Of a DNA stretch of 34,736 nt, positions 19,834-31,046 are shown piece after piece. The position numbers and the translations under genes were made by a program. The stretch comes from a virus: the IMG/VR virus record IMGVR_UViG_3300035698_004930, positions 1 to 34,736 of that record. One strand, written 5' to 3'. The number at the start of each line of letters is the position of its first letter. The stretch's first letter is position 1. The notes beneath the pieces were generated by a model, which was not told the DNA's origin, ran no database searches, and saw only the letters and a program-made list of their open reading frames with translations.

Positions 19834-21960
19834 TTACCACTCAAGATCGAAGAAGTCAGGAACGTCTTTTTCTTGAAGCTCTTCTGTTGCATACCGTAAC
19901 GAGTCTATAAAATGATTAAAGTCGTCAGTCGGTTTATTTGTCGCGACTCCTTCTTTGTTAACTGCCCATGAGTAGTTTTCGAATTCTACCATAAATTCTA
20001 CTAAATGAGCGTTTACTACTATTTCAAACTCAAGTAGAAAATCAATACCCGCGCTAATTGACCCCTGCCCTTTTCTAGCTCCGATTATCGACACGCCTTT
20101 TTGGTCAAGATAGTCAATAGACTTAGGCTCTGAGCTGTCAGCTACTGTTTTATGCTTATGTAGTTGTTTAGATATTATTCGCCTAGCAATTTCAGCATTA
20201 GACAATCCTTTTTCATAAAAACCATCGAAAACGTATATTATTTTATTCTCAAGATCAACGTATGATTCATTAAAAGCTGATGGGTCGTTTGTGTAGCCAA
20301 AATCTAACCCCTGGACAGACTTCAAATTTCTTATCTCGTCTTTATTAATAAACCGTGTTGATACTCTGTTGAATATTAACCCTTTTGCTGTACCCCAATT
20401 CCCCAAAGCATAAATATTATAAAACCGAATATTAGTCTTCTTCTTATTGCTCATTACAAGCTTATAATCATCATCAATAAACTGATTATCTAAATACGTT
20501 GTCTTTAATGTGAACACACCATCTATCGGGTCATCGAAGAATATCTTCTTTATCCAGTGCTGCTCAGATACTGGATTCAATGTTAATGTTATATGTTTTA
20601 GTACGCCGTGATTACCTCGCAATCTAAAATCCAGCTGCTCAAAATCTTCTTGCGTTAATTCTGTCGCTTCTTCGCACCATATTGACGTAACACCCTCAAT
20701 TGACTTCAATTTTTCAACGTCATCAAGACCGCTAAACATCATTTGTGAGCCTGTTGGCTTATAGACCATTGTTTTATCTGTGAGGTTTATATCGAAATAT
20801 GGCAATAGCCCCCATGCTGATATTATATTTTTCATCAAAGCAAAAACTGAGCGCTTCAATGTTCTATCTACTTTTCTAATAATTAAGTAATTGTGTTTTT
20901 CTTTTAGAATACGTTGTAGAACTACACGAGCGACTTTATGTGATTTACCTGAGTTATGATGTATTGTGCCATCTTCTGAAATATAATTATTAGTATCAAG
21001 TACTTGCATGCACCAGTACTCGGACTTCTCGCATACATCTATTGATAAAACAGGGGTGGAGCTGGATATTACGCTAATACCACCAGACATAGAATTTACA
21101 GATGAATCAGCCAAATAACCAGAAAGCCCTTGAGCGATACTTGCGACTTGTCCCGCTTTGCAATGGCGTTCGTTCTTCGTCTGAGATCGCTGAGACATTA
21201 AATGAGAATCCAAAGTACGTACAGAAGATGATGCTTCGATACAATTTGCCGAGGGGGGTTCAGAGTAAAGTTCCATCTCACCGAAATGGCTTTTACAAGA
21301 CAGGTCGCCACATAAACAATGACGGCTACTGCTCTTTAATTTGACCAAAGTCTCACTATTTAATGGCAAACAAGAATGGTCGCATACTAGAGCATCGACT
21401 TTTAATGTCTCAGAAAATAAAGCGTAATCTCCTTCCTCGCGAAGCAGTGGATCATATTGACGGCATTCGTCTGCATAACCACCCAGATAATCTACGTCTG
21501 TTTGACTGTAACGCGGATCATCTTCGAGAGATATTAAAAGGGAACATTCCGAAACGGAGTCAAGACGGGAAGGCTGCGCTTGACTTAGTTCGTCGCCGAG
21601 ACCCAGCATATCAACACGTCGATACTCACCCGTTGAAAGTAAAACAAGGTGGTGCCCGCTTGATTGAAATTCTCCGCGCTCTGTTGTTATTCGATATAGA
21701 TTCGCCTTTCCTTTTGGGAACGATCCACCACTTAGAGAAAGCTGGTATTTTTGATTTTTCTGATTCCAACTTAAAACTCGCATTGGACGATCTATATCGC
21801 AAATACGCTTAAAACCATACTCAGTGTGTATTTTTGTGTCAGGGTGCACGCATCCCGCGCCGCCCCATATTACCTGATACCTTGATTTGTCTTTGAAATA
21901 CGGAATAAACGCGGGTGATGTTTTATTTAGATACCCCCTGACTTCTGCCAGGTTTACCAC
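19834..21960 (-). CDS. terL: Terminase large subunit interrupted by an intein
   Basis: 708 residues before splicing, 408 after. The N-extein (1-36) ends GGAG and the C-extein starts SGKS (337-340), so splicing is needed to form the Walker A loop. Walker B is IWCEEA (427-432), the coupling motif LTLNP is at 459-463. Nuclease-domain acidic residues are likely D553 (GLDFGY), D608 and D686 (HFIDSLRYA). It packages DNA using ATP and cuts concatemers with the small subunit. Its start overlaps the terS end by 7 bases. Without intein excision the ATPase should be inactive, so the intein is not a passive passenger. Confidence 0.95.
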   Translation of the reverse strand: MVNLAEVRGYLNKTSPAFIPYFKDKSRYQVIWGGAGCVHPDTKIHTEYGFKRICDIDRPMRVLSWNQKNQKYQLSLSGGSFPKGKANLYRITTERGEFQSSGHHLVLLSTGEYRRVDMLGLGDELSQAQPSRLDSVSECSLLISLEDDPRYSQTDVDYLGGYADECRQYDPLLREEGDYALFSETLKVDALVCDHSCLPLNSETLVKLKSSSRHCLCGDLSCKSHFGEMELYSEPPSANCIEASSSVRTLDSHLMSQRSQTKNERHCKAGQVASIAQGLSGYLADSSVNSMSGGISVISSSTPVLSIDVCEKSEYWCMQVLDTNNYISEDGTIHHNSGKSHKVARVVLQRILKEKHNYLIIRKVDRTLKRSVFALMKNIISAWGLLPYFDINLTDKTMVYKPTGSQMMFSGLDDVEKLKSIEGVTSIWCEEATELTQEDFEQLDFRLRGNHGVLKHITLTLNPVSEQHWIKKIFFDDPIDGVFTLKTTYLDNQFIDDDYKLVMSNKKKTNIRFYNIYALGNWGTAKGLIFNRVSTRFINKDEIRNLKSVQGLDFGYTNDPSAFNESYVDLENKIIYVFDGFYEKGLSNAEIARRIISKQLHKHKTVADSSEPKSIDYLDQKGVSIIGARKGQGSISAGIDFLLEFEIVVNAHLVEFMVEFENYSWAVNKEGVATNKPTDDFNHFIDSLRYATEELQEKDVPDFFDLEW
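20953..21852 (-). other. Intein in the Walker A loop of TerL (300 residues)
   Basis: It begins with Cys1 (CVHPDTKIHTEYGFKRICDID, block A), has a block B-like SSGHH at intein residues 64-68, and ends CMQVLDTNNYISEDGTIHHN followed by Ser+1, matching blocks F and G with penultimate His and terminal Asn. Inserted exactly between G36 and S337 of the terminase. The intervening ~100-265 residues are rich in Ser, Cys and Asp and contain no LAGLIDADG or HNH motif in this frame. They are instead the antisense reading of an HNH endonuclease gene. Canonical class 1 splicing chemistry is expected. Confidence 0.93.
21102..21812 (+). pseudogene. HNH homing endonuclease antisense to the intein, with one in-frame TGA
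   Basis: One frame of 237 codons with a TGA at codon 81 (21342-21344). Part 1 (80 residues) has an HTH: VRSSSEIAETLNENPKYVQ and LRYNLPRG, then KTGRHINNDGYCSLI. Part 2 continues in the same frame with EHRLLM, VDHIDG, NHPDNLRLF, the HNH nuclease core, and a helical C-terminal domain (ARLIEILRALLLF, GTIHHLEKAGI). Read across the TGA the order matches complete phage HNH endonucleases. The frame starts 12 bases after an in-frame TAG (21090) and lies entirely within the intein. No convincing ribosome site precedes ATG 21102 or ATG 21363. The nonsense codon suggests a recently inactivated gene unless it is read through. Confidence 0.88.
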
Positions 21961-29346: not shown

Positions 29347-31046
29347 GTAACTATTCAGCCCTCTTAAAAAGAAGGCAGTTCTCCAGCCAACGCAGACTTG
29401 ATTGCTTCGGTTGCAGATAGGCCTTGTTTCCGGCAAGTCGATAGATAACCTCTAATACGACAAAATACCTCAGCACCTTGCGCCGATCTAAAGCATCCTG
29501 ATATTTTTTGTTGTACTTTTACCATGCGTAAGTCCTGCTCACCTTGATTATTCGTATAAGGGATATCTTCCCGCGTCATAAAACGCAGCACATCCTCTTC
29601 AAAGTTCAGTAGTCTTTCAAGTAAGTTTCTCGACTTACTTCGCTTAAGTCGACCTCGTTGCCCCGGTTTTCGTTCAGCTTCTAGTGGAGCCGGACACTCA
29701 ATGTCTCCTTTGTCTAATATCGCCCGATACACAGCACGTACTTTCGCTTGCCTCGTTTTCGTCAAACGCCCTCCAGCTTGTTGTACTTCACTATTCAGGA
29801 CTTTAAGGTGCTGCTCCATTTCTCCGGCCCACGCCATCTTGTCCTCTTCAAAGCTCCATGTCAGTTCACGTTGGTGGTGCGCATTACATAAACTGTTTTC
29901 AGCGTTCACAGCAACGCTATAGTAAGCTTTCCAATGATCGTGACAGAGGACACCCTCATAAATAGGAACAACACCCATATCGATCATAGCCTCACCACCT
30001 CGTTTGGCGTGGTGCATTAAATAGGTAAACTGAGCGTTAGAGCACACATGGAGCCACACCCGTTTACCTTTAATATTGATGCCGGTTTCATCAGTATGTA
30101 CGACGGTGCTATTGAGCAAGTGTTGGCGAACAATTGAGTCCCAAGAGTCGAGCTTGTTAAAGACTTCGCGGTTGAAGTTCACTAAGCTACCTGTACTTAG
30201 GGGCAACCCAAACTGATCGCCGAAGTATTCACGGATACGGGCATAAGGTAACAACTGGTATTGAGATAAGTAGACAGCATGTGCTTTGATGGTGGGACCA
30301 TATTGTACGCGTTGCTGAATGGGTTCTGGAAAAGTCGCTGTATAGCGAAGACCGAGGTCATCGATTAAAACTTCGGCCTGGTATTCGGTGACGACCCGAC
30401 GAACCTCAATGTCGAATAATTGCCGCCGCTCAGGCGCCAAAGCACGATAAATACGTCCCTGAGGGAGTGTACGTCGATCGATTGTCAAAGGAATAAGTGT
30501 ATCGGGTTGGTCAGTTAATACCAAGGTACTGCCTAGATGGCCAGGTTGCCCACCGGGTTTACGACTTGAAGGTTCCCGTGTACTTTTTTGACGATTAGGG
30601 TCAGCGGCGGGCGGTTTAGAACTGTTGCGCGAGTTCAGTCCTTTTTGAGCGGAAAGAGCTAGTATAAAACCGACCATAAGTTTGATCATCGCGCGTAAAG
30701 CGGGTGAAATACTCGGGTCATTTTGAAGCAAAGTATTCACTTCATCGATGACAGTATCAAGGTTTTCGCGAGTTGGCGGCATAGGAATGAACAGTTAGTC
30801 TAATGAATGAGACGCTATTATCGCACGGGTTTTCAAGGGCGATTTTTACTCATTGTATGATCGATTATAAGTCTTAATTTATAAGGGCGAGGAAGATCTA
30901 GTGTCTGCTATTAAATGATTATCATCAAGCCGCTATACGCGGTAAATGCATTGATTTAATGCTAGCAAAGCCAGGAGTGGAATGACTAGAAAAACGGCTA
31001 AAACCCTGTCAAGAATTATTTTTAATAATTCGGGCTGAATAGTTGC
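29347..31046 (-). mobile_element. IS66-family insertion sequence, 1700 bp
   Basis: Ends are GTAACTATTCAGCCC (29347-29361) and the inverted GGGCTGAATAGTTGC (31032-31046), 14 of 15 matching, flanked by AAATACGC duplications. It carries a single tnpC-type transposase, without tnpA/tnpB, as in the ISBst12-like subgroup. About 250 bp upstream of the transposase (30783-31031) have no convincing gene. It is richer in GC than the phage. Insertion is intergenic, in the leftward early operon. Confidence 0.95.
29364..30782 (-). CDS. tnpC: IS66-family transposase
   Basis: 472 residues. An N-terminal helical/leucine-zipper part is followed by the basic proline-rich KPPAADPNRQKS and KPGGQPGHLGST, then the DDE catalytic domain: VVHTDETGIN (D231), LCHDHWKAYY (D282) and TNNQGEQDLRMVK (E415). 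ISGCFRSAQGAEVFCRIRGYLSTCRKQG near the end is a family hallmark. No frameshift or stop, so it appears intact and potentially active. Confidence 0.96.
   Translation of the reverse strand: MPPTRENLDTVIDEVNTLLQNDPSISPALRAMIKLMVGFILALSAQKGLNSRNSSKPPAADPNRQKSTREPSSRKPGGQPGHLGSTLVLTDQPDTLIPLTIDRRTLPQGRIYRALAPERRQLFDIEVRRVVTEYQAEVLIDDLGLRYTATFPEPIQQRVQYGPTIKAHAVYLSQYQLLPYARIREYFGDQFGLPLSTGSLVNFNREVFNKLDSWDSIVRQHLLNSTVVHTDETGINIKGKRVWLHVCSNAQFTYLMHHAKRGGEAMIDMGVVPIYEGVLCHDHWKAYYSVAVNAENSLCNAHHQRELTWSFEEDKMAWAGEMEQHLKVLNSEVQQAGGRLTKTRQAKVRAVYRAILDKGDIECPAPLEAERKPGQRGRLKRSKSRNLLERLLNFEEDVLRFMTREDIPYTNNQGEQDLRMVKVQQKISGCFRSAQGAEVFCRIRGYLSTCRKQGLSATEAIKSALAGELPSF

Follow-up and report, generated by a model that had tools for sequence, protein, structure and literature searches.

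The large terminase (terL) gene in the window, by which we mean the whole 34,736-nucleotide stretch of metagenomic viral DNA analysed here (IMG/VR record IMGVR_UViG_3300035698_004930), is interrupted by what is very likely (probability about 0.87) a mobile intein that has its homing endonuclease encoded separately, as a gene running antisense within the intein DNA; that the intein splices, that the endonuclease cuts and that an antisense transcript is made are inferences. The sequences themselves show that both frames are coding and are constrained together, that precise empty sites exist, and that the element has moved horizontally and has decayed in some copies. Our reading rests on recurrence in a single phase, stop-codon deficits, missing Phe-[KNTIM] residue pairs, frame-specific selection and Shine-Dalgarno-like signals, together with the HINT fold of the sense product, the HNH_3 matches of all endonuclease relatives, the empty sites, an intein identity exceeding that of the exteins, and endonuclease decay in which the sense frame is kept. 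Against it we count the lack of a recognisable promoter, the lack of a significant PDB match for the HNH model and the interruption of the window copy.

The terL open reading frame (19834-21960, minus strand; 708 aa) encodes a PBSX/Terminase_3 large terminase whose Walker A motif is split by the intein between GGAG and SGKS. The N-extein (21853-21960, minus; 36 aa) ends in WGGAG, as judged from the reading frame and from intein-free relatives in which the same residues are joined straight to SGKS, and the C-extein (19834-20952, minus) carries the Terminase_3 and nuclease domains. The intein between them (20953-21852, minus; 300 aa) is supported by motifs, Pfam, a HINT-fold model and intein matches in the PDB. 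On the minus strand it has splicing block A (21814-21852), block B with its invariant His (21643-21675) and blocks F and G (20953-21018). With Cys1 at 21852, the block B His, a C-terminal HHN ending at 20953 and a +1 Ser, it has the complete set of splicing residues (Cys, Ser or Thr at position 1, block B His, C-terminal His-Asn, and Ser, Thr or Cys at +1). Pfam Intein_splicing was matched in 44 of 45 intein relatives. In the AlphaFold model both ends build a confident HINT fold (pLDDT exceeding 90 for most of residues 1-90 and 270-300), and residues 144-260, inside the stretch opposite the HNH frame, are disordered; the PDB matches of the model are inteins (E 8e-6), and the criterion of a HINT fold is met. 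No endonuclease could be detected in the sense frame of the window intein or of the 45 intein relatives searched, and the definition of a bifunctional intein, with an in-frame endonuclease domain amid the splicing halves, is not fulfilled. Nor is that of a split intein, which demands two half-genes: the intein is continuous in one frame at every fully covered locus. The initial annotation had described an intein with splicing blocks at both ends and no endonuclease in its own frame; this description held, and its coordinates were exact. Elsewhere in the window, an IS66-family transposase gene (29364-30782, minus; E 1.1e-42) was observed amid the map of phage structural and replication genes.

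The HTH-HNH endonuclease frame (21102-21812, plus strand; 236 codons with one in-frame TGA) covers 79% of the intein DNA and, as had also been claimed initially, lies wholly inside it on the other strand. When the frame is read through the TGA, residues 1-236 match residues 1-234 of the 234 of PHROG 10730 (E=1.8e-99). On the plus strand it comprises a helix-turn-helix region (21171-21257), an HNH core (21390-21503) with the motifs EHR, VDHIDG, LHN and DNLRLF, assigned by position and by residues invariant in 43 sequences, and a C-terminal domain (21624-21809) opposite the block B region. Pfam HNH_3 was found in 43/43 HNH relatives, with HTH matches as well, and the expectation of an HNH motif plus a DNA-binding domain is met. 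In the predicted structure the HTH and C-terminal helices are confident; a fold search of the HNH model against the PDB returned nothing significant. The C-terminal domain shows low divergence and, in the phage collection, is confined to antisense-intein HNHs, which suggests, without proving, an origin by overprinting; it may possibly be a de novo domain. Of the 80 antisense HNH frames examined, only that of the window has an internal stop, the TGA at 21342-21344 (plus), and the ribosome-binding site of the window frame is degraded. Because of these two features the window copy of the endonuclease is probably dead, a refinement of what the initial annotation had proposed. It is likely a decayed allele in which the sense intein frame stays open, and it therefore documents a stage of decay, intact copies, that of Pseudoalteromonas phage PHS3 among them, being found elsewhere.

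The arrangement recurs widely in phages and prophages, and a check for recurrence that had been proposed at the outset confirmed that homologous inteins have a conserved antisense HNH frame. Among 185 distinct related TerL inteins, 176 carry an antisense HNH, all in one phase, none carries a sense HNH and 9 are without HNH; the 176/185 tally was made with an iterated HNH profile, as a strict HNH motif had missed many copies. Because the intein tallies used the best 80 hits per scan and loci chosen for an open sense frame, the absence of sense HNHs is valid for this intein family and not for all TerL inteins; for those of mycobacteriophages, active endonucleases are on record (PMC5050341). A scan restricted to the C-terminal splicing block found the antisense HNH in 79/80 loci, the remaining locus being truncated by a contig end, and two scans for more divergent inteins widened the recurrence. 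In annotated phages, tblastn recovered the HNH frame in Pseudoalteromonas phage PHS3 (70%) and in eight Pectobacterium/Dickeya phages (about 46%); it lies antisense within an open TerL-intein frame in PHS3 and in all five of those eight that were inspected. Scanning viral contigs and genomes for the HNH, an approach blind to what the sense strand encodes, brought in Enterobacter cloacae, Acinetobacter, an actinobacterial MAG and many viral contigs; all main-family loci with full coverage in these scans are antisense in a TerL intein, and three distant HNH relatives (L007, L031 and L037) are free-standing. Among 295 family and 398 phylum genomes surveyed, only the Enterobacter start genome had the element, which is therefore rare in species representatives; a plasmid search gave no match.

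Several loci deserve separate mention. Four candidate exceptions (L057, L073, L107 and L110) were rejected, since they were pattern misses and inspection by eye revealed the same arrangement. Three more divergent TerL inteins (L250, L251 and L296) have a longer antisense HNH of another subtype, with an IHHMNE motif and extra HTH-like repeats, and two loci (L170 and L172) have a direct duplication within the intein/HNH DNA, the sense frame still being open. In E. coli MEI003 (L115, 4026-6313), RefSeq labels the antisense frame 'HNH endonuclease' and the terminase 'missing N-terminus'; such inteins are thus hidden by annotation.

Both frames are held open. When synonymous codons were shuffled in 80 loci with one protein fixed, 472 antisense stops (about 6 per locus) were expected with the sense protein fixed. 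Only 11 were observed: six precede the HNH start codon, four coincide with the natural end of the frame, and the window TGA is the 1 internal stop; with the HNH protein fixed, 0 sense stops were observed versus 540 expected. Across 18,662 HNH codons the sense frame contains 0 stops, and the other reverse frames contain 855 and 794. The phase pairs the wobble position of one frame with the middle codon position of the other. It forbids Phe before Lys, Asn, Thr, Ile or Met, and none of these pairs occurs in the antisense HNHs (0/297, versus 10/29 in seven free-standing relatives). Selection is purifying in the HNH frame across the N-half and core of the endonuclease, and in the sense frame across the splicing blocks. 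Omega (a count ratio, without a tree) was estimated in four gap-free groups: for the HNH N-half it was 0.29-0.45 in the antisense frame and about 2 in the sense frame, and for the HNH core 0.30-0.74 and 1.3-1.8, respectively; outside the HNH frame, sense omega was 0.20-0.46, with 0.79 in one group. The N-half values also run counter to the outcome that would have refuted the initial annotation, namely constraint in the TerL frame only. Nucleotide divergence is minimal in the overlap of the block B region with the C-terminal domain of the HNH. A Shine-Dalgarno-like motif precedes the HNH start in 45/70 cases versus a 6% background; no promoter of the antisense gene was recognisable, the scan being uninformative with 4 sites versus 3.8 expected.

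Intein-free alleles and precise insertion between codons are both documented. The terL region is intein-free in 784 of the 785 E. coli genomes that have it, only MEI003 being occupied, and the listed empty E. coli loci are shorter by exactly 1008 bp. Pseudoalteromonas phages AL (L208, empty) and PHS3 (L004, occupied) share one host species and differ by a clean insertion of 900 bp and by 4 mismatches in 700 flanking bases. The intein DNA of MEI003 and the Enterobacter prophage is 92.2% shared, versus 71.3% for the C-extein DNA; as another pair has 79% for the intein versus 80.5% for the extein, the intein is not merely slow-evolving. The element has moved between these divergent terL genes of E. 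coli and Enterobacter, and what is asked of a homing endonuclease, namely a gene located in the insert, missing from empty alleles and carried by an element that moves horizontally, is met. Four mini-inteins (L175, L179, L180 and L181) retain HNH remnants and one locus (L093) has lost the HNH N-terminus, the sense frame being kept in all five; such a pattern is consistent with a homing cycle that loses its endonuclease before the intein. Beside the insertion, PHS3 and AL have two synonymous differences, at -4 and -1, within near-identical surroundings, possibly a trace of co-conversion. PHS3 also has a putative DNA methylase gene between the terL and portal genes (L004, 1757-2677) that is missing in AL.

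We propose that the sense strand encodes the HINT splicing halves, connected by a disordered linker, and that TerL would be made as a precursor from which the intein excises after translation, restoring TerL. The HTH-HNH endonuclease, which has a start codon of its own and in most cases a ribosome-binding site as well, would be made from an antisense message separate from that of terL; this protein would cut intein-free terL at the Walker A codons, and repair would copy the whole cassette in. The Walker A motif at the insertion site is common even to very divergent terminases. The initial annotation had likewise envisaged an intein that splices and an antisense protein that cuts empty terL; this is supported, with splicing, cutting and antisense transcription remaining inferences. 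A bolder reading, towards which the balance leans slightly, is that of an old and widespread class of mobile elements with splicing on the sense and homing on the antisense strand, in which any endonuclease is encoded antisense and in a single phase throughout, its C-terminal domain having been gained by overprinting opposite the block B region.

Antisense open reading frames are common opposite real genes, and several other antisense frames of the window have no relatives (a PHROG match was absent for four other plus-strand ORFs). The HNH frame might accordingly be a spurious mirror of the sense coding sequence. However, this possibility is all but excluded by the full-length HNH family match, by antisense purifying selection, the stop deficit and ribosome-binding sites, and by the same-phase recurrence in 176/185 distinct inteins. 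It is also very unlikely that a free HNH gene inserted into and broke terL, the open sense frame being fortuitous. Annotation pipelines do call the two pieces separately and splicing is only inferred, but all splicing residues and a HINT fold are present, sense stops are absent where 540 were expected, the splicing blocks are under sense purifying selection, HNH-less mini-inteins remain in frame, and plaque-forming phages such as PHS3 carry the element.

The HNH protein could instead be a DNA-packaging partner of the terminase rather than a homing enzyme, given that it sits in terL and that in some phages packaging is assisted by HNH proteins encoded close to the terminase genes (cited in PMC11855218 and PMC10448857). 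We consider this very improbable, as the HNH is missing from intein-free sister phages and prophages, is decayed in several carriers and travels together with the intein. For a group I intron whose endonuclease gene is antisense there are documented precedents (PMC9548176), but such an intron is practically ruled out here: an Rfam match, as the requirement for intron RNA structure would demand, was absent in the window, PHS3 and the E. coli loci, and the open sense frame encodes intein blocks. We therefore retain the intein with an antisense homing endonuclease as our reading.

Taken in this way, the data describe a large intein family with splicing and endonuclease on opposite strands. Strand separation could uncouple endonuclease expression from terminase expression and free the splicing protein of a nuclease domain. 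The family further provides a strong natural example of dual coding over a long antisense stretch (about 700 nt in over 170 distinct sequences), one that leaves a measurable fingerprint; terL genes of this kind are missed by annotation pipelines. As PHS3 (occupied) and AL (empty) are both Pseudoalteromonas marina phages, homing is directly testable.

In published descriptions, inteins have their splicing and endonuclease domains fused in a single frame. The initial annotation knew of no established class with an antisense gene, and none was reported in the literature searched, which excluded the fractured-genes paper (Dassa et al. 2009) and a relevant 2025 preprint on the non-canonical architecture of actinobacteriophage inteins (10.1101/2025.01.02.630785). 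Fractured genes with split inteins reportedly have an endonuclease gene separate from the splicing protein (Dassa et al. 2009); there the intein is split into two genes, whereas here one continuous intein frame is overlapped. The ShiLan element (PMC11855218), whose HNH domain is a distant relative, also has an HNH gene that overlaps an open host-gene frame (a phage methylase) and is hidden out of frame. However, it lies on the same strand, without a splicing domain or a detectable ribosome-binding site; an element of that type, with a same-strand HNH in another frame and no splicing domain, does not describe our case, in which the HNH is on the opposite strand and a HINT domain is present. In nuclear group I introns with I-DsqI (PMC9548176), an endonuclease gene likewise lies opposite a self-splicing element and the empty site is cleaved, but splicing there is of RNA in rDNA and the other strand need not be coding, whereas here both strands code for protein. 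The bifunctional TerL inteins of mycobacteriophages (PMC5050341) are, like ours, mobile, endonuclease-associated splicing elements in a motif of the TerL ATPase domain; they hold the endonuclease within the intein protein, whereas here it is a separate antisense gene lying opposite a disordered sense linker.
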